Shown in pieces: positions 7,967 to 19,717 of a stretch of 22,894 nt of DNA. Position 1 is the first letter of the stretch, and the number at the start of each line of letters is the position of its first letter. Location: the NCBI GenBank assembly GCA_002707085.1, contig PALY01000067.1, positions 1-22,894 of the forward strand, written 5' to 3'. A program made the position numbers and the translations under genes. This DNA is from Deltaproteobacteria bacterium (GTDB lineage: Bacteria > Myxococcota_A > UBA796). The notes beneath the pieces are model-generated. The model was not told the origin of the DNA. It ran no database searches and worked only from the letters and a program-made list of their open reading frames with translations.

Positions 7967-9529
7967 ATGAATCCCAGCGATTTGGTCCAGCAAAGCCGGC
8001 AGCAGACCCAGAAGGGAGACCTTGTCGGGGCTGTAGACACGTTGAGACAGCTTGCCCAGCTTGTCCGAAGCCCAGGGGTACATGCGACCATGGGGGGCCT
8101 CCTGCGGGATTTGTGCGACATAGATGGCGCCCTCGCAGCGTATCAACAGGCCTACGAACTCTCGGGAGATGATGCATACAGGCTTCGTGCTGCACTCACC
8201 ATGCCCCCCATCATGCGATCTCGACAAGCGATCGCTGAAACTCGGACCCGGATGGAAGGTTCACTTCGATCTTTGCTTGCTGAGAATATTCGAATCGATG
8301 ACCCAGTTCGGATGATTCCTCATTTGGCTTTCTATCTTGCCTACCATGGGGAGAATGACCATGATTTGCAGCAACTGATTGCTCAGGTCATTCGGAAAGC
8401 ATGCCCGTCTTTACAGCATACAGCGCCTCACATTGCTGATTGGGGTGGATGTGCTGACCGAAAAGTAGAAGTGGTTTTTGTTTCATCGCATTTGAAGAAC
8501 CACACCATCGGCCGCCTGAATCGAGAGTTGATACGGCTTCTTGATCGCTCGCGTTACCGTGTGACGGTTGTATTTGTGGGTCAACCCAAAGATGCGTTTG
8601 CACAAGAGATAGCAGCGAGCGCGGATTCGGTCGTTGTTGTTTCTCGAAACATTGCAGAAGCTCAATCGACCATTGCAGGCTTGCAGTGTGATTTGCTGTA
8701 TTACACCGATATCGGCATGGACCCGTTCACGTGGCTGCTGGCTCATTCACAATTGGCCCCCGTCCAGTGTGTGACATGGGGTCATTCGATGACCACCGGA
8801 CTCGACACTCTGGATTGTTGGATCAGTGGTAAAGACACCGAAGTCGATACGGGACAAGCCCATTACACAGAGCCATTGGTTCGGCTCACAGACCCAACTG
8901 TGACCTATCGTCGCCCCGTACTGGATGGACCTGTTCCGAGCCGACGGGCCCTTGGGATGCCATCTGAAGGGACGATTTACTTGTGTCCTCAGACGACCTT
9001 CAAGCTTCATCCAGACTTTGATCCGGTCATGGGAGAAATCCTGCGGAGAGACCCAACAGGGCATATTGTCCTTCCGTCTCCACGTGTTCCATCATGGAAG
9101 TCGGTTCTGTTTGAACGAATGCGTCCTCACTTTGATGTGAATCGTCTGGTGTGGCTGCCTTCCGCTCCTCATCAGCAGTTTTTGGCGACTTTGGCGGCAG
9201 CAGATGTGTTGATCGATCCAATCATCTACGGTGGATGCAACACATCCTTGGAAGCGTTGGCCATGCGCACCCCCATTGTGACGCTACCGTCTCCATTTTT
9301 GAGAGATCGATATACTGCTGCTTGGTATCGGTGCGTGGGTGTGACCGATTGCATCGTCGAAACCAAAGAAGAATATGTAGATTTGGCAATTCGGCTTGGT
9401 CAGAATCCGAGCTTGCGGTCTTCCATCATGGATCGAGTAGCGGAAAACGATGCCGTACTCTTTGATAATCCTCGTGCTGTTCGAGAACATGAGGCTTTGT
9501 TTGAGAAACTGCTGGCAGACAAAAGCTGA
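7967..9529 (+). CDS. TPR/GT41 (O-GlcNAc transferase, SPINDLY-like) glycosyltransferase
   Basis: 520 residues. The N terminus (1-75) is helical with TPR-like spacing. The linker PPIMRSRQAIAETRTRM (80-96) is the conserved P-x-I-x-x-S...R-x-R segment found before GT41 domains. The catalytic region starts at VEVVFVSSHLKNHTIGRL (167-184), equivalent to the S-x-D-F-x-x-H-x-x-G segment of OGT. LAPVQCVTWGHSMTTGLDTL matches LAPVQ-x-x-W-x-G-x-x-x-TTG, and DPIIYGGCNTSLEALAMRTP matches the sugar-nucleotide-binding D-x-x-Y-x-G-x-T-T-x-x-E-A-L motif, with Cys-Asn in place of the usual Thr-Thr. It probably transfers a hexose or HexNAc to Ser/Thr of proteins or to a glycan. The ATG at 7967 lacks a clear ribosome site, and a TTG at 7943 is the alternative. 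Its stop lies one base from the converging CotH-like gene. Confidence 0.86.
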   Translation: MNPSDLVQQSRQQTQKGDLVGAVDTLRQLAQLVRSPGVHATMGGLLRDLCDIDGALAAYQQAYELSGDDAYRLRAALTMPPIMRSRQAIAETRTRMEGSLRSLLAENIRIDDPVRMIPHLAFYLAYHGENDHDLQQLIAQVIRKACPSLQHTAPHIADWGGCADRKVEVVFVSSHLKNHTIGRLNRELIRLLDRSRYRVTVVFVGQPKDAFAQEIAASADSVVVVSRNIAEAQSTIAGLQCDLLYYTDIGMDPFTWLLAHSQLAPVQCVTWGHSMTTGLDTLDCWISGKDTEVDTGQAHYTEPLVRLTDPTVTYRRPVLDGPVPSRRALGMPSEGTIYLCPQTTFKLHPDFDPVMGEILRRDPTGHIVLPSPRVPSWKSVLFERMRPHFDVNRLVWLPSAPHQQFLATLAAADVLIDPIIYGGCNTSLEALAMRTPIVTLPSPFLRDRYTAAWYRCVGVTDCIVETKEEYVDLAIRLGQNPSLRSSIMDRVAENDAVLFDNPRAVREHEALFEKLLADKS

Positions 9530-9530
9530 A

Positions 9531-11201
9531 CTATAGCTCTTGACCGAAGTACCAATCTCTTTCGTCGAAGGTCAGCGAATAGCCATTTGGAACTTCTAGC
9601 CATTGGTCTTCGGTGTAGGTCAGCAATCCATGGATCTCATACTCATCGTCCTCAAAGACGATTGAAGTGGTTTCACCGAAGATGAAGAAGCGGCCATCGA
9701 TGCCCGTTTCTTCGGCCGTACATCCTTCTCCGCTTACGATTCGTAGATCCGATAGGGTCATACCCATGGCGAAACTACAGTCATCTCCACAGTCTTCTAT
9801 AGACTCCAGATCAACAAGGTCCGCTTCCATTTCACACCCAGAACCATCTTCTCCAATGCGGTAATAGCTGAACTCACCGCTGCTTTCGCCGAGGGGAATA
9901 TAGGCTCCCCACTCACTTTCCTGATTGTCGTCAAAACCATCGCAAAAGTCCCCGCGTAGCGGTGTGTCCCATACTTCAGGACCCGAGTCGATTTCCTCTC
10001 GGATTCGTTCGCCATGTTCGGCGATATATTCGATGGTTTCGTGCATGGCATCACGCACATCGTCCTCTTCATCTTCTGAGATTTGAGGTCCGATAACGCT
10101 GGCCATTTCGATCACGGATTGTTCAAAAGCTTCGACATCCCAGTGGGTGTCCAGAAGCGACTGCAATCGATTGAGGTACAACTCTTGTCCTTCGGTACTC
10201 AGATACATGCGGCGAGCAAGCAATCCAGCCGCATTGATGGACCGCGGCGCAACTTTGTCTTCAAACAGCATGTAAGGACCCACAAATGTTCCGTCTGTTC
10301 CCCAAGGAAGGAAGTGGGTCAATCCTGATTCTGGGTCTTCATACAGATAATAATTGTTGGTATTTCCCGCGTATCCATCCCAGTGAGCGGTCATGGTTTC
10401 AACCGCCCAGAAAGTGAGGAATGCGTCCATGTCTAGAACCGCTTCCAACTGTTCGACGAGTTCATCATCGGGTGCTTCAAGTGCAGTCGCTATGGCATTG
10501 ATGGGTCGATGAGTGGGTTCGTCTTCATTGGTTTTTTGTTCAAATGTGCCGTCCCACCCTTCTCGGAAGTCGCTCAATGTTCCTTCATAGAGGTATCCGT
10601 CATTGTCGTCGAAGTGACGGCCAATCAGTTGTTTCTTCATGCTTTCGACATTGACGTATATGCCTAGATTTTCTCCATTCAGGAACACTTGAGCGAAGTT
10701 GCATCTTGGAGCGGGTGTGCCGGCCGCTGTTAAAAGATCATAGGCAAGACATTGACGAATATAGGACTCATCTTGAATGGAATTGTTCAATGTCAGTCTT
10801 TCGGAATCTAAGAAGGTTTGGTCCTCGACAAATTTATCAAATTTGAGTTTGAGTGAAGGCTTTTCTTCATCCATGGAACCCACAAAACCTTTCTTTCGGA
10901 TTCCAACATTATCGAAGGTTTCACCGTCGATGGTGATGGCAGCAGAGAACCAAGTAAAGGGCGATTCTGGCCAGTCGCATTCATCGTTTAGATACACATC
11001 TCCACGATCCTGGAATCGCAAGACATCCCAATCATCGTTGTTGATTTCAATGTGGACATCCAAAAGATGGGAGCGCTCAAAGATTTCATCGGTTCGATCG
11101 CTTTCGGAGTCTTCCACATCCTCTTTGGGGCTTGTACAGCCGATGAACCCTACAGCGAGTGCGGTGACCCAGGAAAGAGATGTGGTCTGTGACTGCAACA
11201 T
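9531..11201 (-). CDS. CotH-family (kinase-like) lipoprotein
   Basis: 556 residues. The ATG at 11201 with TTTGGAG upstream gives MLQSQTTSLSW plus a hydrophobic stretch ending FIGC, a lipobox-like Cys22, although the n-region has no Lys or Arg. The CotH fold is recognisable: HLLDVHIEINNDDWDVLR, the KPSLKLKFDKF segment (K-P-S-x-K-x-K-F-D), RLTLNNSIQDESYIRQCLAYDLL, and FLPWGTDGTF, which replaces the usual P-W-D-x-D. CotH proteins of spore coats and of the wider secreted family have atypical kinase folds that phosphorylate extracellular proteins. Retention of the second Asp leaves activity possible. The last ~150 residues form a separate domain with six Cys. The neighbouring lipoproteins, glycosyltransferase and sulfotransferase suggest a cell-surface role. 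Confidence 0.87.
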   Translation of the reverse strand: MLQSQTTSLSWVTALAVGFIGCTSPKEDVEDSESDRTDEIFERSHLLDVHIEINNDDWDVLRFQDRGDVYLNDECDWPESPFTWFSAAITIDGETFDNVGIRKKGFVGSMDEEKPSLKLKFDKFVEDQTFLDSERLTLNNSIQDESYIRQCLAYDLLTAAGTPAPRCNFAQVFLNGENLGIYVNVESMKKQLIGRHFDDNDGYLYEGTLSDFREGWDGTFEQKTNEDEPTHRPINAIATALEAPDDELVEQLEAVLDMDAFLTFWAVETMTAHWDGYAGNTNNYYLYEDPESGLTHFLPWGTDGTFVGPYMLFEDKVAPRSINAAGLLARRMYLSTEGQELYLNRLQSLLDTHWDVEAFEQSVIEMASVIGPQISEDEEDDVRDAMHETIEYIAEHGERIREEIDSGPEVWDTPLRGDFCDGFDDNQESEWGAYIPLGESSGEFSYYRIGEDGSGCEMEADLVDLESIEDCGDDCSFAMGMTLSDLRIVSGEGCTAEETGIDGRFFIFGETTSIVFEDDEYEIHGLLTYTEDQWLEVPNGYSLTFDERDWYFGQEL

Positions 11202-11318
11202 GGTGGATGACTCCAAAACGTTTTGTTCTAGAAGAAGGTACCACTTTCTTGAAGGCCATTTTTAGAGAAGTGTATGAGCACAACAGTACGTCAGCCGAGA
11301 ACGCTTGCTGAAACGATG

Positions 11319-11861
11319 CTAGTCCACAGGGTTGATGGACGCTTCGGATATGTGTCCAGCCTGATCTTGAAGCCAGAGCAATAGCGTTGTGGTGTCATCT
11401 CTTTCGGCGATGATGGCGAAGAAGAGTTCACCTGCAACGGGGTTGTGAAGCACATGAATTCCATCGATACGGAGGTCCAATTCGTGGACTTCGCTTGAAA
11501 ACGCAGCATGACCGAGAACCCGTCCTCCATCCATGTCCATATCGGGATCACTGTAGTTAATCGTGACCTCGATTACGGATCCGAAATCTGGGTATTCATC
11601 CCATTGGGCGCTGACAGAGAGGATGACGGGTCCATCAGGGTGTGGTTCTGTGTCCGGCTCGTCTGTGTCGGTCGGTGTGCCCGTGTCGGCGCCAGTGTCT
11701 CGTTGTCCGCCTGTGTCTATCGGCCCTGTAGAGCCGCTATCGCCTGCTTCTGTCGAGTTACTGACATCTGTTGATCCGGTGTCGTCTGGTGTGTCACGGC
11801 CATCTGATTTGCCCGAGGTGCAGGCAAAGAGCGAGAGCAGGATCCAACAGAAAAAGGGCAC
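11319..11861 (-). CDS. Short lipoprotein with Asp/Thr/Gly-rich linker
   Basis: 180 residues, not recognised. The signal is MPFFCWILLSLFAC (lipobox LFAC, Cys14), followed by a roughly 60-residue low-complexity linker of D-T-G, S-T and T-D units (DTGSTD, DTGADTGTPTDTDE). A C-terminal beta-rich domain of about 100 residues (PVILSVSAQWDEYPD...) may be an Ig- or cadherin-like module. The only usable start is GTG at 11861; it lacks a ribosome site, the n-region has no positive residue, and the codon lies inside the 3' arm of a terminator-like hairpin. Expression may therefore be low or conditional. It lies 40 bases downstream of the MopE-motif lipoprotein on the same strand. Confidence 0.62.
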   Translation of the reverse strand: MPFFCWILLSLFACTSGKSDGRDTPDDTGSTDVSNSTEAGDSGSTGPIDTGGQRDTGADTGTPTDTDEPDTEPHPDGPVILSVSAQWDEYPDFGSVIEVTINYSDPDMDMDGGRVLGHAAFSSEVHELDLRIDGIHVLHNPVAGELFFAIIAERDDTTTLLLWLQDQAGHISEASINPVD

Positions 11862-11885
11862 GGAAACAGTGTACCGCGCCCTTTT
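11851..11885 (-). terminator. Hairpin plus T run after the MopE-motif lipoprotein, overlapping the next start
   Basis: Read on the minus strand, AAAAGGGCGCGG (11885-11874) pairs with CCGTGCCCTTTT over 12 positions with one G-T wobble, leaving a 10-base loop and ending in TTTTT. It begins 16 bases after the stop codon at 11902. The 3' arm contains the GTG start of the next lipoprotein. It has the form of an intrinsic terminator or attenuator and is roughly symmetric, with TTTT on the other strand. Confidence 0.7.
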
Positions 11886-11901
11886 AAAGATGTGGAGAAA
11901 A

Positions 11902-13044
11902 TCAGGATTCGATGGTCAAGTCGTAGAGACCTTCTTCACAGGTGATTTCGTCCCATTCACCTGCGTCGGTGTACACCCGGACGTACCAAGTGTCCCAGTC
12001 ATCTTCCCACCACCAGCCTTCGCCATCCACTTCAAAGTCGTCTTCGACGATGTGGATGCCGCCGTACCCGTACGCAGTTGCGATGGGGTGAGATGCGTCC
12101 CACTCTACGGCGTATACCTCGACAAAATAGTAGGTGTAATCGCTGCCTTCCAAGATAACGGCAATGTCTGGATCTTCGAACCAGTCGTCATCTGCATCCC
12201 ACATGAACCAGTCTTCATCCACGGGGTTGTCCAAGTTCAGGTTGCTGATGGTCACAGATGCGGTGTCTCCACTAAACCAGTCCTCATCAATTTCACCGAG
12301 GTCTACAGCGGTTGTCATGTACTCGTTGGGTTCGTATGCGTCCCAAAATTCGGAGTCAACGTCACCATCACAGTTGTTGTCCAACCCGTCGCACCATTCA
12401 TCTGCACCAGGGTATGTCCAGTAGTCTTCATCATCACAGTCACCGTCTTCAACGGACCATCCATCACCGTCTTCATCGGTGTCGGCATCGGTGTCGGCAT
12501 CGGCATCGGCATCGGCATCGGCATCGGCATCGGCATCGGCGTCTGCATCGGCATCATCCGAGCCACCTTCGATGGTGACGATGACTGTGGCTGACGTGGA
12601 CTCACCGGCGGAGTCTGTCGCTTCCAGAGAAACAGCATGACGGCCTGGCTCCAGCGCATCGGTGGTGAAGTTGACATCACCTGCACCGGACGCTGCGTCG
12701 TCATTTAGGTCTCCTTGAAGGTCGGAACTCCAATTGAGTTCAAGGGTTGCCGGATCATCTAGATCGTCGGTCACGGCTGCAATAAATGTGATGGTGTCGC
12801 CATTTTCAAAGACCTCGCCATCGACGGGAGCCGATATTTCAACAGATGGAGGCAAGTTGTCCGCATCTGCGTCAGCATCGGCATCGGCATCGGCATCGGC
12901 ATCGGCATCGGCATCGGCATCTGCATCTGCATCTGCATCACCAAGATCAAGGTCAAAGCCTGTATCTCCAGCTTTTTCGTCGCCGGAACATGCAGCGATT
13001 GCAAAGGCTAACGTCAGTAAAGTAAGTCGTGTTCGGATGTGCAT
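11902..13044 (-). CDS. Lipoprotein with two (Asp-Ala)n tracts, Ig-like domain and MopE-type metal-binding motif
   Basis: 380 residues. MHIRTRLTLLTLAFAIAAC is a lipoprotein signal (Cys19). The order after it is: a first (Asp-Ala) tract of about 27 residues; an Ig/PKD-like domain (PPSVEISAPVDGEVFENGD ... SATVIVTIEG); a second (Asp-Ala/Thr) tract; and a MopE-type motif with D-x-D-G-D-G-W, GDCDDED, YPGADEWCDG and DNNCDGDVD, which in that family binds copper or calcium. An acidic Trp-rich C-terminal beta domain of about 150 residues resembles a PPC module (NPVDEDWFMWDADDDWFED). It is probably surface-exposed and metal-binding, with the repeats as extended negative stalks. The ATG at 13044 has GAGGTG upstream. 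It sits 94 bases after the other (Asp-Ala)n lipoprotein and may share its transcript. Confidence 0.85.
   Translation of the reverse strand: MHIRTRLTLLTLAFAIAACSGDEKAGDTGFDLDLGDADADADADADADADADADADADADADNLPPSVEISAPVDGEVFENGDTITFIAAVTDDLDDPATLELNWSSDLQGDLNDDAASGAGDVNFTTDALEPGRHAVSLEATDSAGESTSATVIVTIEGGSDDADADADADADADADADADADTDADTDEDGDGWSVEDGDCDDEDYWTYPGADEWCDGLDNNCDGDVDSEFWDAYEPNEYMTTAVDLGEIDEDWFSGDTASVTISNLNLDNPVDEDWFMWDADDDWFEDPDIAVILEGSDYTYYFVEVYAVEWDASHPIATAYGYGGIHIVEDDFEVDGEGWWWEDDWDTWYVRVYTDAGEWDEITCEEGLYDLTIES
12481..12558 (-). repeat. Hexanucleotide repeat encoding second Asp-Ala tract of the MopE-motif lipoprotein
   Basis: Tandem 6-base units, plus-strand GGCATC, encode Asp-Ala on the minus strand (GAT GCC). 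Seven pure copies lie at 12496-12537, flanked by variant units (GGTGTC, TGCATC, GGCGTC) that introduce Thr or synonymous codons. Unit length is a multiple of three, so copy-number change would keep the frame. Confidence 0.95.
12862..12941 (-). repeat. Hexanucleotide repeat encoding first Asp-Ala tract of the MopE-motif lipoprotein
   Basis: Thirteen six-base units. Seven are identical GGCATC copies at 12880-12921, followed by three TGCATC copies. They encode (Asp-Ala)13 directly after the lipidated N-terminal segment. Confidence 0.95.
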
Positions 13045-13138
13045 AGGGCACCTCTATTGGGTTTAGGTGTGTCCTTTTTACAACGATGGCGGGGGCTTCG
13101 TGGTGACGAGTATGTGACCCCTCTGTCACCAGTTTGTG

Positions 13139-14731
13139 TCAGCTTCCACCCTCTGCTGTGCTGGATGCGTCTGTGTCTGTCGTTTCTGGGTCGGTACTGC
13201 CCGTATCTTCGATGGGGTCTGAGGTTGCTCCAGTGTCCGCATCCACATCCGCATCTGGGCAGGCCTCGTCGCTGTACGAGTCGGTGCAAGGCACCCAACC
13301 CTCGGGCGCGCAGGTTGTGGAGAACATGTGGCAATCGGACTCATCAGCACCCGCAGGTTTGGCGTATGAAAGAGCCTCCCCGCAGAACATGGTGATGTCG
13401 ATGCAACCTTCGGCGATATCGGTGGCGTCATAGTCCACGCAGGCACCATCGGTATCGACGGGAAGCCCTGTAATCGGGACACATGCATCATCCGCAACAC
13501 AAGCGGCCCGGTCGAGGTCGGCACAACTCATGACTGAGCCGGTGTCGTCGGCATCGGCATCTGCGTCGGCATCTGCATCTGCATCTGCATCGGTATCGGC
13601 ATCGGCATCTGCATCGGCATCTGCATCTGCATCTGCATCGGCATCTGCATCCGCATCCGCATCCGCATCCGCATCCGCATCCGCATCCGCATCCGCGTCA
13701 GCATCTGCTTCCCACGTCATGTCCGTCAACTCTCTTGAAAGAATAATGGATTCTGTTTCTGTGTCTGTATGCAGCTCTTTCACGAGCCCCATGCCTTCGA
13801 CATACCAAAAGTCAGCACTCGCTGGATAATCGCGTGTGAAGCCGAGTCCAGAAGCGGTGAGTGCCATGATGTATTCAGACTGAATGTGCCATGCCTCTTC
13901 GTACATGACACCCGCAACGGTGACTGAAACAATGCCCAGGTCGGTATATGTTCCACTCACAGGAATGGTTGTGACTGGGATTCCGGTGGCTGGGTACGAC
14001 ATGTCATAGCTGAAGTCCCATGTTGTATCCGTCCCCACAGTACCCGGTTCGTTCAGGTACATGCGTGGTTCTGAGTGGACCATTTCGACCAAGCCAAGTT
14101 CATATGTGTCGTAGCTGATGTCGTGGGCCCACCCGAACGTGTGCATTCCCATCGAACCTTCTAATCCACAGCCCACATAGGTTTCTCCTGCCCATATGGT
14201 GCGGCCGTCTTGAATGAGTTCTTCATGTCGCGCCCAGACAGTGATTCTATCGTCACCCCATTCTACGATTCTTCCTGAAGGAGACTCTACGGATGTAGCA
14301 CTGCCATCGATGAATGTGGCATCGAAGGTCTTGGTCCAGCCAGTACGGTCTACAGGGTCGAACGGATGCGCACAAAAAGTGTAGTCGGGTCCGGGTCCGG
14401 GATCGCCACCATCGGCGTCTGCGTCTGCGTCAGCGTCTGCATCAGCATCGGCGTCAGCATCGGCGTCAGCATCGGTGTCAGCATCGGTGTCTGCATCTGA
14501 ATCTGCGTCAGCGTCAGCGTCTGCATCGGCGTCAGCATCAGCATCGGCGTCAGCATCGGCATCGGCATCTGCATCGGTATCGGCATCGGCGTCAGCATCT
14601 GCATCGGCGTCAGCATCGGCATCTGCATCGGCATCTGCATCCAATTCGTTTCCGTCAATGGAGCCACTGTCTACAGAAGACTTGTCTCCACATCCCACGA
14701 TTGTCATGGCAAAAAATATCCAGCTTCGCAT
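13139..14731 (-). CDS. Lipoprotein with two long (Asp-Ala)n tracts and a Cys-rich C-terminal domain
   Basis: 530 residues. [14 protein letters not shown] is a lipoprotein signal (Cys14). A 75-80 residue Asp-Ala tract with some Thr and Ser follows, then a beta-rich domain of about 230 residues ([13 protein letters not shown] ... [14 protein letters not shown]) with [20 protein letters not shown] second tract of about 55 residues leads to a C-terminal domain with about ten Cys ([19 protein letters not shown] ... [16 protein letters not shown]), ending in a D/T-rich tail. I do not recognise either globular domain. The ATG at 14731 has GGAGAG seven bases upstream and is one base from the stop of the LuxC-like gene, which implies translational coupling. 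Starts up to 200 bases upstream would overlap that gene and lose the signal peptide. Probably an outer-surface protein. Confidence 0.85.
13547..13708 (-). repeat. Hexanucleotide repeat encoding second Asp-Ala tract of the Cys-rich lipoprotein
   Basis: About 27 six-base units. A run of eight identical GCATCC units fills 13647-13694 (Asp-Ala with the GCG alanine codon). The rest is mainly GGCATC and TGCATC (GCC and GCA codons). The GCG block occurs nowhere else in the window's tracts and suggests recent local expansion. Confidence 0.95.
14411..14642 (-). repeat. Long mixed hexa/dodecanucleotide repeat encoding first Asp-Ala tract of the Cys-rich lipoprotein
   Basis: About 38 six-base units encode Asp-Ala with scattered Asp-Thr and Asp-Ser. 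Unlike the other tracts it mixes GGCATC, GGCGTC, AGCATC and TGCATC. A 12-base higher-order unit, GCATCGGCGTCA, recurs several times. It has more synonymous variation than the other tracts and so looks older. Confidence 0.93.
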
Positions 14732-14732
14732 A

Positions 14733-15734
14733 TCAAATCTCTCCAGATGCGCGTTGTAGGCCAGATAGCATTGCTCGTCCATCATGATTTCGAGGAAATG
14801 GTGGTGCTTGCATCCAGCCCAAGGCACAGATCCGGTGGAAATCTTCCCCTGCGAGGGTGGGCGAATCGGTACCGCAGGTAGATAACCATGGCTTTTGTTG
14901 TGCCATGAGGGCCTGAAATTCGGCGGCATCTTGGACCGGGTGAATGATCACCATTCGTGGCAAAGCACTTGGTGTAAAATATTGAGAAGGCAGTGTCACG
15001 ACCGCCCAGTTGGTGCCTTTGTGAACGATGCCCAAGACTTGAGCGAGGCCCAAGCGTCTTCTCCATTCGGGTCCAAGTGCAGGATCGACAGTCCCTCTGG
15101 GCCATTGATGTTCCGCGTTCTGCATGGCTTTTGCGAGGGATGCTGCCAGGGCGACAGGATCGCCTGTCGTAAACACTGCTGTTGGTGCCATGCAGCCGCG
15201 GGTGTCATACCTTGAGACATCGAGTGCGAGTGCAGTCGCCGCATCATCGGGAGAACCGGTCACAAAAGCTACACTGAATCGGTGTCCATACAATGCGTGG
15301 CGAGCAAGCGGTGTTGATTCGGCTACGGTTTTGATGGAGTCATCATCTCCGAAGGCAACGACTGCATCGGTTTTTGGGATCGCTCTGTCCGTACTCCATG
15401 TGATGGGCAAACCTTCTTTCTGCATGTCTTCAACCAAAGCACGAACGAGTGCAGGATCTTGAGAGGGTGCTTTGATGTGAACGGTCGCTCCACCCGCAAG
15501 AGCCAATGCAACCCATTCGATGGGTGAAGAGAACACTCCATAGGCAATGACAAATGCAATGGATCCAGGGATCGGACCTGAATCCTGTAAGGCTGCATTG
15601 ATGCTGTGTACGTTGAGGGGGCGAATCGCCTGATGCAGACACGCCTGGGCATTTTCGGGACTGAGTCCCTGAGATAATGGTCCCGCCTCTCTCGCCCTGA
15701 GCCGCGCCAAGCCCCGAATTACCTGTTCAACCAT
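14733..15734 (-). CDS. LuxC-like acyl-CoA/acyl-protein reductase
   Basis: 333 residues of the aldehyde-dehydrogenase superfamily, LuxC branch, which reduces an enzyme-bound fatty acyl thioester with NADPH to an aldehyde. [20 protein letters not shown] (63-82) and [15 protein letters not shown] (82-96) match the LuxC nucleotide-binding half. [12 protein letters not shown] (129-140) follows. [15 protein letters not shown] (174-188) carries the acyl-accepting Cys181. Canonical LuxC is about 480 residues, so this is a compact form lacking much of the N-terminal region. The ATG at 15734 has GAGGAAG upstream and overlaps the LuxE-like stop by eight bases; a start at 15764 would lengthen that overlap without a better ribosome site. 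It acts with the LuxE-like protein upstream. No luciferase genes are present, so luminescence is not implied. Confidence 0.85.
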
Positions 15735-16692
15735 TGGCTTCCTCGACTGAAAGGCTGCACCCACGGGGTGAAGCGCCCACCAAACGGCCCTCTAGAGTGA
15801 CATCGCCGTTGGAATGAACCACACCCACATCTTGGGTTTCGATGGCGATCACAGTCTGATGATTGGCCAAATCATAAAAACGGAGGAGTCCTCTGGTTGT
15901 GGGTTCTCCTGTCCAAGGATCGACGGCTTGCACACGCATCCATGGTGGGGGTCGATATGGACTTCCTGCGGGTACCGCCCAAAGTTGGCTCGACAGTTCG
16001 CTCATGCCGTACTCGCCGACGATTTGAGCGCCGCGTAGGCGCTGAGCGAGTGTGGAGTACAAAACATCATCTGTGACCAACCGCGTTCGTCCTTTGAACC
16101 CTCCGGTCACCATGATGATGCTTCCAGGAGGCACTTCACATGAAACATCCGAACCGTTTATCAAGTCCGCCAAAGCGAATGCAGTGCCTGGGATAAAGAG
16201 GGGCTTTCCTTTGGCGGAGGCTTCTTGAATGGCGTTCCATCCTTCATGGATTCGCACTCCAGATTCTGCTGAAAAATGGTTGCTCATGCCGGGAGTGAAT
16301 TGAGCGCACATGTGTCCGAGTGAACTATCCGCAGCTGTCGGAGTAAATGACACACCATGCCTTGGGAGTGGACCCAAACACGCCTCGGCGTGGCGCCGAG
16401 ATGCGAGATTGTAAATATCCGTATCTACCAGCCGTACGCAGCCTCTTTGTCCGCTTGTTGTTCCACTGGTACGAAACGTGACCTGTGCATCCTCGGGGGG
16501 AAAACATGTGAGGGTGAGGTCGCGAAAAAGAGTGGTGGGTACCGCTGGAATCTCTTGCCAGGACCGCACGTGGATGTCTCCGCAGAAACGATCATATTGA
16601 GCATTGTGGTTTCGTTGCCAATCATAAACTTCAAGCGCCATCTTTTCGAAGTCACCGCCGTGTTCAATGAATTCACGGATTTGTTCCTTCAT
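15727..16692 (-). CDS. LuxE-like acyl-protein synthetase
   Basis: 321 residues of the adenylate-forming superfamily, LuxE branch, which activates a carboxylic acid with ATP and holds the acyl group on a Cys before reduction by LuxC. IPAVPTTLFRDLTL (48-61) and VTFRTSGTTSGQRG (71-84, the P-loop-like ATP segment) are diagnostic. VTGGFKGRTRLV and GEYGMSELSSQLW (adenylation core) follow. The C terminus reads RLVGASPRGCSLSVEE; this near-terminal Cys (about residue 312) matches the acylated Cys near the end of luminescent-bacteria LuxE. Its ATG overlaps the aminotransferase stop as ATGA, with GGAG upstream, and its own stop overlaps LuxC by eight bases. Acid substrate unknown. Confidence 0.88.
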   Translation of the reverse strand: MKEQIREFIEHGGDFEKMALEVYDWQRNHNAQYDRFCGDIHVRSWQEIPAVPTTLFRDLTLTCFPPEDAQVTFRTSGTTSGQRGCVRLVDTDIYNLASRRHAEACLGPLPRHGVSFTPTAADSSLGHMCAQFTPGMSNHFSAESGVRIHEGWNAIQEASAKGKPLFIPGTAFALADLINGSDVSCEVPPGSIIMVTGGFKGRTRLVTDDVLYSTLAQRLRGAQIVGEYGMSELSSQLWAVPAGSPYRPPPWMRVQAVDPWTGEPTTRGLLRFYDLANHQTVIAIETQDVGVVHSNGDVTLEGRLVGASPRGCSLSVEEANG

Positions 16693-17936
16693 GATCGCTC
16701 CGCGTCGAGTGCCTCAAGAAAGCATTGCAACTGCGCTTGCGTTGTCGTCAACGGTGGCGTGACTCCCAAGACTTCCCCAGATTCACCGGCAGGGAGTGCA
16801 ATAAATCCTCGACGCAACAAGGCTCGACTAACGGCGAGCGTATTTTGCATTTCGATTCCGAGCATCATTCCCCGTCCTCTTACCGTGAGGCCTCGACTCA
16901 CCAGTTCGTCCATCAACCAACGTCCAGTATCCACCGATGATGGAATGACATGTTCCAGCTCTTGAATGCATGCCAAGGCCATTGCGCAGCCAACGGGGTT
17001 TCCGAGAAAGGTTTGCGTATGGAGTGCCTCTCCTGTTGAAGCCCCCCACGCATCCATGGCTTCGGCAGTTCCAATGCAGGCAGAGATTGGAAATCCGCCC
17101 GCCATGCCTTTGCCCAACACCAAGATGTCCGGACGGACATTTTCATCTTGAAATGCGAACCAATTCCCGGTGCGTCCAAACCCTGTATAGACCTCATCAA
17201 AAACCAATACAGCTCCGGCTGCACGGGTTTTGTCCGCCAGCTCTTGTAGCCATCCAGCGGGCGGAACGCGGATGCCGCCACGCCCTTGTATGGGTTCCAC
17301 CAGCACCGTTCCTATGGTGGATAAATCGGGTATTTGACCCCCAAATTCAGCCCGGACTACATGATCGCCGAGTTGGGCTTGGAATGGACCCCGAAAGGCG
17401 TCTCCATGATAGCCCGTCACGGGCAATGCCCCGTAGCTGAGTCCATGGTAGGCGCCGGTAAAGGCCAAAACTTGAGGTCTGCCGCTCATGATACGGCCAG
17501 TTTTTAGTGCCGCTTCTACTCCATCTGATCCACTGCTTCCGAGAATTGCGCGCGCCAACCCTGTTTTTTTGGCGAGCATTTCAAGCAAACGAATTCGTCC
17601 GGTGTCAGGGTATGCATCGCCCATGACATGAACAAGAGTATTCATCTGTTCTTGGCCGGCAGCGATGACTTTTGGATTGCGGTGACCGACACTTGCAACA
17701 CCGAAACCTGCGGTCAGATCGATGTACCGGTTTCCGTCTACATCGATGACATTGGACCCCATAGCTTCGGCCCAAACGATGGGGTCGTCATCTACAGCCC
17801 CCAACGCAGATGCTCTTCGTGCGCGCCTGGCTGTGATGGCAGGACACTCTCTCTCAGCCAGCCGGTCTACCCAATTGCGGCTCTCAGGTCCGGGTATGGG
17901 GGTAAGGATCTTGGGCAATGTGTCATCAGCTTTCAT
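16689..17936 (-). CDS. Class-III PLP-dependent aminotransferase (omega-transaminase type)
   Basis: 415 residues. Fold-type I class-III transaminases move an amino group between an amine or omega-amino acid and a keto acid or aldehyde. Visible motifs are GSSGSDGVEAALK (133-145, cofactor phosphate region), GAYHGLSYGALPVTG (161-175), VLVFDEVYTGFGRTG (243-257, with the pyridine-N-binding Asp247), ILVLGKGMAGGFPIS (271-285, Schiff-base Lys276) and HTQTFLGNPVGCA. All catalytic residues are intact and length is normal. It is the first gene of a tightly packed set with LuxE- and LuxC-like genes, so an aldehyde made by those enzymes is the natural candidate amino acceptor (inference). It is divergent from the rhomboid gene across 77 bases; AGGT lies upstream of the ATG. 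Confidence 0.9.
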   Translation of the reverse strand: MKADDTLPKILTPIPGPESRNWVDRLAERECPAITARRARRASALGAVDDDPIVWAEAMGSNVIDVDGNRYIDLTAGFGVASVGHRNPKVIAAGQEQMNTLVHVMGDAYPDTGRIRLLEMLAKKTGLARAILGSSGSDGVEAALKTGRIMSGRPQVLAFTGAYHGLSYGALPVTGYHGDAFRGPFQAQLGDHVVRAEFGGQIPDLSTIGTVLVEPIQGRGGIRVPPAGWLQELADKTRAAGAVLVFDEVYTGFGRTGNWFAFQDENVRPDILVLGKGMAGGFPISACIGTAEAMDAWGASTGEALHTQTFLGNPVGCAMALACIQELEHVIPSSVDTGRWLMDELVSRGLTVRGRGMMLGIEMQNTLAVSRALLRRGFIALPAGESGEVLGVTPPLTTTQAQLQCFLEALDAERS

Positions 17937-18013
17937 GTCGACGACCTATCGGAACCAGGGCGATCCTGCCCGTTCATGCTGTATCGTGACCCTGACATGA
18001 CTTGGGAGTATGG

Positions 18014-19717
18014 TTGATCATCGAACTACAGCGGGGTGGACACATTCAAAGAATGGTCTACGACGATTTTGAGGCGCGGATTCGCAATGGGGAGATTCCG
18101 CCTGATCTACCGATCCGTTTTGAGGCGGTCACCGGCGATGATTTCGTTCCCGTAGGCCAACTGGAGTTGTATCAGGTACTCGCGGACCCAAAGCGAAGGG
18201 AATTTAGGAGGAAGCTCACCACATCCGGTGTGCCCTTAATTACCGCACTTTTAGTGGGTGTTCAGATACGGATTTACCTGGCCAGTTGGACACCGGGTGC
18301 CGAAGACTTCTTGCAGTCTGCATTTACCAATTGGGCGCCTGGAGTTTTAGAACAGGCTCAGGTGTACCGTTTGTTGACCTATGGTCTGCTGCACATCAGT
18401 TTCACGCACCTTCTGTTTAATCTGACCTTTCTCGCCTATACCGGGTACAACTTGGAGCGTGCATTGGGCCGTTTGAACCTGTTGGTTCTCTATTTTGGGA
18501 GTGTCTTTACAGGAGGCGTGCTGTCGATGTGGATGGCACCAGAACGACCCAGCCTGGGGGCGAGCGGTGGCGATTTTGGTTTGATTGCAGCGGCTGTTGT
18601 GTTTGGTTGGAAGCACTGGGATGACATTCCAAAACAGGCCCGGGCGAAGTTTGGGTGGGCCCTTGCGCCATACTTGGGGTTTTCTTTGATCAGTGGGCTG
18701 AGCGCCGAAAATGTGGACAATTGGGGACACTTGGGTGGTCTACTTGGTGGTGCTTTTTTGATGACCCTCCTGACCCCCGAGATTGCACCTGAACACGCTC
18801 AACGAAACCGGCGTGTGCGTCGGATGGCTGTGGCGGCAGGTTTGAGTCTGTCCTTCTTGTTTGGCATTTGGGGTCCATCACTGATTTCCATGACATCTCG
18901 AGGCGAGGGCAGTTGGACCGTTCCCGTTCCTTCATATTGGAGAGAAGGTTGGACGTTTACAGGCGATCGTGGATGGTTTTCTCCAACGGGTGAAGCAACC
19001 ATGGTGGTTACCCGAACAGTGCAAGATCGCCCATTAAGCGATGCTGCAGCGGTCGATAAACTGATTGATCGAATTGCGGCTGCCGGCCATGAACCCCAAG
19101 TTTTGGAACGGACGCCGCTTGAGGTGGCCGGTCATGAAGGTGTTTTATTGGTCATTCAATTCTCTTTGGCCGGTGAACTGCAGGAGCTTCGTTCAGTGGT
19201 GTTGACCCGAGGCGTGGTGACCTACCGCGCGCATTTGCAGTCATCTGCCCATCGGGCTTCACATTACGGACCCGTCCTACAACGCGCATTGACGGCCGCA
19301 AGGCTTGATGTGCCAGAAGAACTGACCTTGGCGTATGAACGGGCTGCAACCCACCCTCGATCTTGGCAACCTGCTGTAGAGCTTGCGGACGCCTTGTATC
19401 GGACAGGGGAGCCGGTGAAAGCATTGGCAGAATACGAGCGAGCTCTGTCCTTTTCTCCTGTTCAAACCCAAGCGCTGGTGGGTAGGCTTAGGGTGTATGC
19501 CTTCTATGGTTTGGATGGTGGTTTGGCTGTAGCCAGAGAGAGCATTTCCACCGCCTCTGAAGATGTTCGTGTTTTGGTTGCTGCAACGGATGTGTTTGAT
19601 TCTGTTGGAGCAACGGAAGAATCGATTGATGTTCTGGATCAAGCCTGGATTGCGTTGCCCGGCAATGGGATCATTCGAAGAGCAAGGCTTCGTCGGGGTC
19701 TACCGGTCGATATTTAA
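18014..19717 (+). CDS. Rhomboid-family intramembrane serine protease with C-terminal TPR-like region
   Basis: 567 residues. Residues 1-62 form a soluble cap (IIELQRGGHIQRMVYDDFE ... FVPVGQLELYQVL) resembling GYF_2/DUF4339-type sensory caps. The rhomboid core (about 70-275) has HISFTHLLFNLTFL (the H-x-x-x-N oxyanion pair), LGASGGDFGLIAAAVVFG with catalytic Ser184, and NWGHLGGLLGG with catalytic His239, so the Ser-His dyad is intact; a Gly replaces the usual Ala after SG. A further hydrophobic segment lies near 268-290. After an extracytoplasmic-looking domain (290-420), the last 150 residues are helical with TPR-like repeats (SWQPAVELADALYRTGEPV, EESIDVLDQAWIALPG). The TTG at 18014 with GGGAG five bases upstream is preferred over the TTG at 18002. 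The stop overlaps rsmB by four bases. Confidence 0.87.
   Translation: MIIELQRGGHIQRMVYDDFEARIRNGEIPPDLPIRFEAVTGDDFVPVGQLELYQVLADPKRREFRRKLTTSGVPLITALLVGVQIRIYLASWTPGAEDFLQSAFTNWAPGVLEQAQVYRLLTYGLLHISFTHLLFNLTFLAYTGYNLERALGRLNLLVLYFGSVFTGGVLSMWMAPERPSLGASGGDFGLIAAAVVFGWKHWDDIPKQARAKFGWALAPYLGFSLISGLSAENVDNWGHLGGLLGGAFLMTLLTPEIAPEHAQRNRRVRRMAVAAGLSLSFLFGIWGPSLISMTSRGEGSWTVPVPSYWREGWTFTGDRGWFSPTGEATMVVTRTVQDRPLSDAAAVDKLIDRIAAAGHEPQVLERTPLEVAGHEGVLLVIQFSLAGELQELRSVVLTRGVVTYRAHLQSSAHRASHYGPVLQRALTAARLDVPEELTLAYERAATHPRSWQPAVELADALYRTGEPVKALAEYERALSFSPVQTQALVGRLRVYAFYGLDGGLAVARESISTASEDVRVLVAATDVFDSVGATEESIDVLDQAWIALPGNGIIRRARLRRGLPVDI

Follow-up and report, generated by a model that had tools for sequence, protein, structure and literature searches.

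The stretch of DNA analysed here (the window) comprises the first 22,894 of the 26,285 bases of contig C67, which belongs to a draft genome (G000) with a completeness of 72%. On its minus strand lie three overlapping genes for a class-III pyridoxal phosphate (PLP)-dependent aminotransferase (AT), a LuxE-like acyl-protein synthetase and a LuxC-like acyl-thioester reductase (Table 1). We consider it likely that this trio forms an alternative branch of queuosine biosynthesis, which converts 7-carboxy-7-deazaguanine (CDG) to preQ1 in place of QueC and QueF. An earlier reading of the bare letters (the sequence-only reading) had reported three overlapping genes with intact catalytic residues at this place and no luciferase or LuxD. 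All of this was confirmed: Lys276 and Asp247 of AT, the RGCSL cysteine of LuxE and Cys191 of LuxC are present, and a Pfam scan of the 20 open reading frames of the window revealed no member of the luxAB or luxD families. The AT and luxE genes share an ATGA overlap. For luxC, a start at the GTG at 15764 yields 343 amino acids (aa) and an overlap of 38 bases with luxE, and the in-frame ATG at 15734 yields 333 aa and the 8-base overlap reported earlier.

Table 1. Genes of the trio and residues discussed in the text (window coordinates).
Feature	Position	Strand	Evidence
Class-III PLP aminotransferase (AT), 415 aa	16689..17936	-	PF00202 (Aminotran_3), E 7e-77; same-strand neighbour of LuxE in 42 of 51 stretches
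LuxE-like acyl-protein synthetase, 321 aa	15727..16692	-	NCBIfam LuxE, E 6e-10; profile against 7xc6_E, E 5e-20; in 52 of 58 genomes
LuxC-like acyl-thioester reductase	14733..15764	-	PF05893, E 4e-23; profile against 7xc6_A, E 2e-17
AT Lys276, PLP Schiff-base lysine	17109..17111	-	K in 108 of 108 aligned rows
AT Arg219, at the acidic switch residue position of related transaminases	17280..17282	-	R in 72 of 72 distinct ATs
AT Gly391, Arg in the nearest solved relatives	16764..16766	-	R in 0 of 72 distinct ATs; R in 7nn1, 4uox and 9wqz
LuxE Cys312, C-terminal RGCSL motif, proposed acyl-carrier cysteine	15757..15759	-	Alignment A1; GCSL of solved LuxE
LuxC Cys191, proposed catalytic thiol	15192..15194	-	Invariant in 18 of 18 sequences (alignment A2)

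Properties of the three proteins

At E 0.01 the LuxE-like protein matched no Pfam family, and its match to the NCBIfam LuxE model is partial and reaches 38.6 bits against an equivalog cut-off of 550. The comparison of a profile of its relatives (A1) with the solved LuxE chain 7xc6_E covered positions 15-313 of 316. As the score lies far under the equivalog cut-off, the window protein is, judged by its sequence, a relative of luminous LuxE and not luminous LuxE itself. The cysteine of the RGCSL motif, which we take to be the acyl carrier, is almost invariant among the 20 LuxE sequences in A1, one of which ends at a contig edge. The LuxC-like protein scored 82.3 bits with PF05893 (cut-off 21) and 29.9 of the 750 bits set for the NCBIfam LuxC equivalog, and is with 343 aa shorter than the luminous enzyme with 477 aa. 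Like the LuxE-LuxC acid reductase of bioluminescence (7xc6), the trio combines a C-terminal LuxE cysteine (GCSL) with a catalytic LuxC cysteine and would reduce an acid with ATP and NADPH. Unlike that system, it is accompanied by a transaminase, lacks luciferase and LuxD in the window and has a heterocyclic acid as its proposed substrate.

The aminotransferase shares the class-III fold, the PLP lysine and the aspartate (Asp247, kept in 108 of 108 aligned rows) with ArgD, GABA and putrescine aminotransferases. However, the position of Arg219 is occupied by E or D in ArgD, putrescine aminotransferase and Ala/Ser racemase, whereas the C-terminal Arg common to these three is found in none of the 72 distinct ATs near LuxE, all of which carry Arg at the switch position. 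Judged from these residues, whose roles in related enzymes we presume, the swap marks the ATs as a subfamily of their own and speaks against an ordinary role with amino acids or diamines; Arg219 may bind the carboxylate of the amino donor. A grouping with GABA, ornithine or similar enzymes, which would have spoken against the sequence-only reading, was not seen, as the AT scored under the cut-off of all 25 listed of 69 matched NCBIfam families. Among these is PigE from prodigiosin synthesis, presumably a thioester reductase fused to a class-III transaminase. It shares the thioester-aldehyde-amine logic, while the trio consists of three separate proteins and its AT reaches 194 bits against the PigE cut-off of 850. 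The residues, the family scores and the lack of fitting genes among the neighbours read led us to reject readings as GABA, ornithine or putrescine aminotransferase as well as a fatty-amine or prodigiosin-type pathway. Replacement of an acetylornithine-type function (ArgBCD) was considered and put aside without a search after queuosine genes had appeared.

Conservation of the trio

Conserved synteny of the three families, which had been set beforehand as a test, exists in Myxococcota and beyond. Within a set of 58 genomes (the own genome and 57 relatives, out to order level) LuxE was present in 52, with some of the matches being fragments and the one in G020 being just 26% identical, and in 26 of the 27 genomes with at least 90% completeness and at most 5% contamination. 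Same-strand neighbours of LuxE were AT in 42, LuxC in 35 and both in 32 of 51 stretches; counted among these are some truncated at contig ends, the G020 locus with its weak match and, from the genus of the window, a second LuxE-LuxC pair that is divergent. This pair (L038; G002:C375, 4114-6530) has no aminotransferase nearby. With LuxE in 52 of 58 genomes and AT and LuxC adjoining it in most stretches, the arrangement is not due to chance.

A scan of genome contigs confirmed at least 566 relatives, and the best 80 of these carried labels of Myxococcota, Verrucomicrobiota, Omnitrophota, Sumerlaeota and others; AT and LuxC also lie near LuxE in loci of Verrucomicrobiota and Omnitrophota. Another 70 Myxococcota loci lie outside the order, some of them identical with loci named here. 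Allowing a distance of up to 0.7 kb and either strand, 52 of these loci had AT, 54 LuxC and 43 both. Gene models in GC-rich loci combined homology with codon-based calls. Within the order flanking clusters repeat as well (c2 in 30 and c3 in 26 of 52 loci); as such recurrence was not seen across phyla, we take the trio as the unit. A search for phage-borne copies gave no match for the window LuxE and one partial match of 24% identity for the Verrucomicrobiota LuxE; none was confirmed in viral contigs.

A peptidase M19 gene follows luxC in L039 (11450-12442; PF01244, E 2e-75) and at other loci. The L039 gene is the one confirmed member of an M19 dipeptidase cluster that occurs in 14 of 52 loci, in some of them beside LuxE without LuxC, and for which no role was found.

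Queuosine genes in the same genomes

According to passages of PMC5372724 and PMC11130926, the product of QueE is CDG, an acid, the substrate of Tgt is preQ1, the aminomethyl counterpart of CDG, and the known enzymes between the two are QueC and QueF. The own genome of the window encodes FolE2, QueA and Tgt above the curated cut-offs, together with a QueE match of 265 bits (cut-off 300) and, adjoining FolE2, a PTPS protein above its Pfam cut-off which reaches 45 of the 89 bits of the QueD model. No QueF was found in this 72% complete genome, and no QueC beyond a partial match (E 9e-4). Due to this completeness, the absence of both rests also on the relatives.

Among the 58 genomes, Tgt was present in 57, and the QueE model matched with E < 1e-70 in 41 and more weakly (1.1e-29 to 7.6e-12) in eight. 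A strong QueC (2e-74) was found solely in G035; the next-best full-length match was 2.2e-7 and the others were partial, probably representing other PP-loop ATPases. In G035 two QueC genes are accompanied by FolE2, a radical-SAM QueE-like gene and PTPS inside a Dpd island (DpdA 1e-152, DpdB 2e-137, DpdC 8e-42), and because of this location they most likely serve DNA modification. The island (L238, G035:C41, approximately 8716-18208) contains DpdA, two DpdB, DpdC, the QueC pair, the QueE-like gene, PTPS and a FolE2-HTH gene.

QueF exceeded its cut-off in 10 of the 58 genomes, in a divergent form. In the eight of them that were read (G011, G015, G023, G029, G033, G038, G045 and G055; not G020 and G051) it shows the motif FTF(L/V/M)G(V/T)..QPD(F/Y), whereas two strong QueF sequences show FTC(V/L)CP.TGQPDF; the cysteine which we take to be catalytic is thus gone. 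Divergent QueF genes lie at L166-L169 and L239-L245, and at L243 and L244 they adjoin an M19-dipeptidase-like gene, as judged by eye. LuxE, any QueE match and Tgt, without a strong QueC and without a non-divergent QueF, occur together in 41 of the 58 genomes, or in 34 if strong QueE matches alone are counted.

A second test covered 377 genomes of the phylum. With at most six candidates scored per genome, LuxE (E <= 1e-10) was found in 298 of them, of which four with values weaker than 1e-20 (G020, G177, G239 and G366) were dropped, leaving 294 with strong LuxE. QueC (E <= 1e-25) was present in 56 genomes, and just four of these (G035, G170, G186 and G278) had a strong LuxE where 43.7 were expected (Fisher p 5e-37); two more had a weak one. 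QueF (E <= 1e-8) was present in 59 genomes, in 12 of which, all from the order of the window, it was divergent (eight of these sequences were read). None of the other 47 (2e-20 or better) had a strong LuxE, with 36.7 expected (Fisher p 2e-37), and two (G239 and G366) had a weak one. At family level, 45 families with LuxE and 12 with strong QueF had none in common (p 1e-9, based on a total of 61 families, the largest count encountered). All these counts and family lists were compiled by hand, and the p-values ignore shared ancestry and are hence too strong.

In some loci queuosine genes directly adjoin the trio. Within an outgroup set of 37 loci or genomes, which come from other phyla and in part from Myxococcota of other orders, queE lies upstream of the AT gene in L132, L135 and L150 (TIGR04349; 296, 303 and 304 bits, cut-off 300), overlapping it by one base in L132. 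A queD gene lies downstream of luxC in L123 and L134 (TIGR03367; 78 and 107 bits, cut-off 89), and L126 has a weaker QueD match beyond luxC on the opposite strand. Four of the five loci flanked by queE or queD carry record labels of Verrucomicrobia or Verrucomicrobium, and L134 is unlabelled. In the order of the window, L049 (G045) has the order folE2-AT-luxE-luxC, with folE2 abutting the AT gene and the predicted ends overlapping by 13 bases. QueC at E <= 1e-10 is absent from 28 of the 37 outgroup genomes.

A proposed route from CDG to preQ1

As CDG is an acid and preQ1 the corresponding aminomethyl compound, the chemistry of AT, LuxE and LuxC would connect both. The proposed scheme builds on the gene identities, the catalytic residues, the queuosine genes found and not found, the exclusion of QueF and the adjacency of queE, queD or folE2 in some loci; from these we infer substrate, order of steps, aldehyde intermediate, cofactors and amino donor. 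CDG, the carboxylic acid made by QueE, would be activated by LuxE with ATP (adenylation of the carboxylate) and bound as a thioester to the C-terminal cysteine of this protein. LuxC would take over the acyl group on its own cysteine and reduce it with NAD(P)H to 7-formyl-7-deazaguanine, the aldehyde group of which AT would convert to the aminomethyl group of preQ1. Subsequently, Tgt would insert preQ1 into tRNA, where QueA would elaborate it. The acid-thioester-aldehyde-amine logic of the sequence-only reading is thereby upheld in form and fits the gene set found. Its statement that product and role are unknown can be replaced by a specific proposal, CDG to preQ1.

The proposed branch has the same start, end and partners (FolE2, QueD, QueE, Tgt and QueA) as the QueC-QueF branch, which leads from CDG via preQ0 to preQ1. 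The enzymes, however, are unrelated, and an acyl-thioester and aldehyde route takes the place of an amide and nitrile route. A little less firmly, we regard it as probable that the trio constitutes a second, non-orthologous de novo route to preQ1, which runs via 7-formyl-7-deazaguanine, bypasses preQ0, is the main queuosine route in most Myxococcota and occurs also in Verrucomicrobiota and Omnitrophota. In the open-licence PMC literature no paper combined queuosine with LuxE or named formyl-7-deazaguanine, and none described this route, as far as titles and beginnings of abstracts among the matches listed show; earlier work may exist elsewhere.

Queuosine is a very widespread tRNA modification, the known bacterial synthesis of which runs via preQ0 by means of QueC and QueF. 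A genome that encodes QueE, Tgt and QueA and neither QueC nor QueF would be taken for a salvager or for one with an incomplete pathway. If the proposed route is real, predictions of queuosine makers would have to be corrected for much of a large phylum, and a widespread gene set annotated as hypothetical, acyl-CoA or acyl-protein synthetase or AMP-binding protein would be explained. Moreover, queuosine synthesis would then be distinct from the pathways for DNA modification and antibiotics that depend on preQ0, and a simple set of enzymes for turning the acid group of a heterocycle into an amine would become available.

Observations that weigh against the proposed route

Besides the limits of the co-occurrence analysis given above (six LuxE candidates per genome, manual compilation and shared ancestry), several observations speak against the proposed conversion of CDG to preQ1. 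The assignment of CDG as the most likely substrate and preQ1 as the most likely product comes from sequence comparison, and the loss of the usual Arg makes the amino donor of the AT uncertain. QueE was not found in nine of the 58 genomes and exceeded the curated cut-off in none of the 58, and the QueD model matched in 42 but exceeded its cut-off in just four. Matches to QueC of any kind occurred in 33 genomes, 28 of them above the Pfam cut-off of 22 bits and nearly all partial. G170, G186 and G278 combine QueC with a strong LuxE; the QueC of G170 is canonical (L301), that of G186 nearly full and that of G278 cut by a contig end. Conversely, no LuxE was found in G311, a genome from the order of the window with 7% contamination, in which QueC adjoins FolE2 and a gene resembling QueE.

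Queuosine genes lie directly beside the trio in just five of the 37 outgroup loci and in one relative (L049), and at the 70 further Myxococcota loci QueE was seen once, approximately 4 kb away. No preQ1 riboswitch was detected at Rfam gathering thresholds in the window and 15 loci. Nine of the 37 outgroup genomes, four labelled Verrucomicrobiota and five Omnitrophota, contain a divergent QueC paralogue (1e-20 to 1e-36), and among them are L135 and L150, two of the three loci with queE beside the AT gene. These divergent proteins (L288-L297; ten sequences, one incomplete) have kept the SGG.(D/E)S PP-loop and the zinc cysteines and lack the NA.DY(S/A)GYPDCRPE motif of strong QueC. Their presence counts against a simple replacement of QueC in Verrucomicrobiota and Omnitrophota. 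AT and LuxE of one genus (L072, L073, L076, L081 and L082) had no LuxC in their vicinity, with LuxC not having been searched genome-wide. Residual doubt concerns direct proof, this genus and the divergent QueC of other phyla.

In the same genus, AT and LuxE are encoded on opposite strands and a KAS III gene adjoins LuxE. A cyclase-like gene, identified by eye, lies beside LuxE in four of these five loci.

LuxE relatives on plasmids

Plasmid-borne relatives of LuxE from Azospirillum, Pantoea, Priestia and Lactiplantibacillus (L374-L380) are 34-41% identical to the LuxE of L132. In the six annotated regions (L378 carries no annotation) LuxE forms a set with LuxC and a short-chain dehydrogenase/reductase (SDR), with no annotated aminotransferase nearby, a point that also weighs against the proposed route. 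An ABC importer lies inside the set in three of these regions, and an SLC23-type permease in one. These operons resemble the trio in the adjacent LuxC and differ from it in that an SDR takes the place of the AT and transporters are present. Their product is probably an alcohol, and a pathway for salvage of an acid to an alcohol is possible. A quick tree of 133 LuxE rows, in which several deep forks are weak, places all seven rows from plasmids in a single group (support 99) within the wider set. The plasmid operons suggest that this branch of LuxE acts on acids of various kinds, perhaps heterocyclic ones. As such operons exist without an annotated AT, LuxE alone is not a marker for queuosine.

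Alternative explanations

The trio might belong to 7-deazaguanine metabolism and make something other than preQ1, such as a modified base for a second Tgt-like gene. At least two TGT matches are present in most of the 58 genomes, the LuxE-LuxC-SDR operons suggest that the family acts on several acids, and a divergent QueC has been kept in some genomes with the trio. Against this stands the own genome of the window, which has Tgt and QueA and yet, without QueC and QueF, no other visible source of preQ1. We regard another product as improbable.

An equally small chance is given to a lipid role, in which a fatty acid or another acid of lipid type would be reduced and aminated to give an envelope alkylamine. 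That luminous LuxE and LuxC act on fatty acyl groups is established knowledge, and KAS III adjoins LuxE in the genus mentioned above. Apart from this gene, no recurrent lipid gene was seen among the neighbours read, not all of which were annotated, and as KAS III was seen in one genus only, lipid synthesis through it was rejected. The length of LuxC is well below that of its luminous counterpart, queuosine genes adjoin the trio in several loci, and a lipid substrate would leave the exclusion of QueF unexplained. For C8-C18 acids and alkylamines, the substrates and products named in the sequence-only reading, no support was obtained, as queuosine genes flank the trio in several loci and the trio fills the gap left by QueC and QueF.

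Least likely, by a small step, is that salvage of preQ1 or queuine explains the missing QueC and QueF while the trio makes an unrelated amine: loss of early genes in salvagers is known (passages of PMC5372724), but a QueE match is kept in 49 of the 58 genomes, although the same passages describe salvagers as lacking queD, queE and queC, QueA in the own genome points to insertion of preQ1 and not of queuine, and trio genes adjoin queE and queD.

Other genes in the window

A large minus-strand open reading frame without a Pfam match (13139-14929) encodes repeats of an Asp-Ala type. Its neighbour is a protein with MopE motifs (11902-13044).

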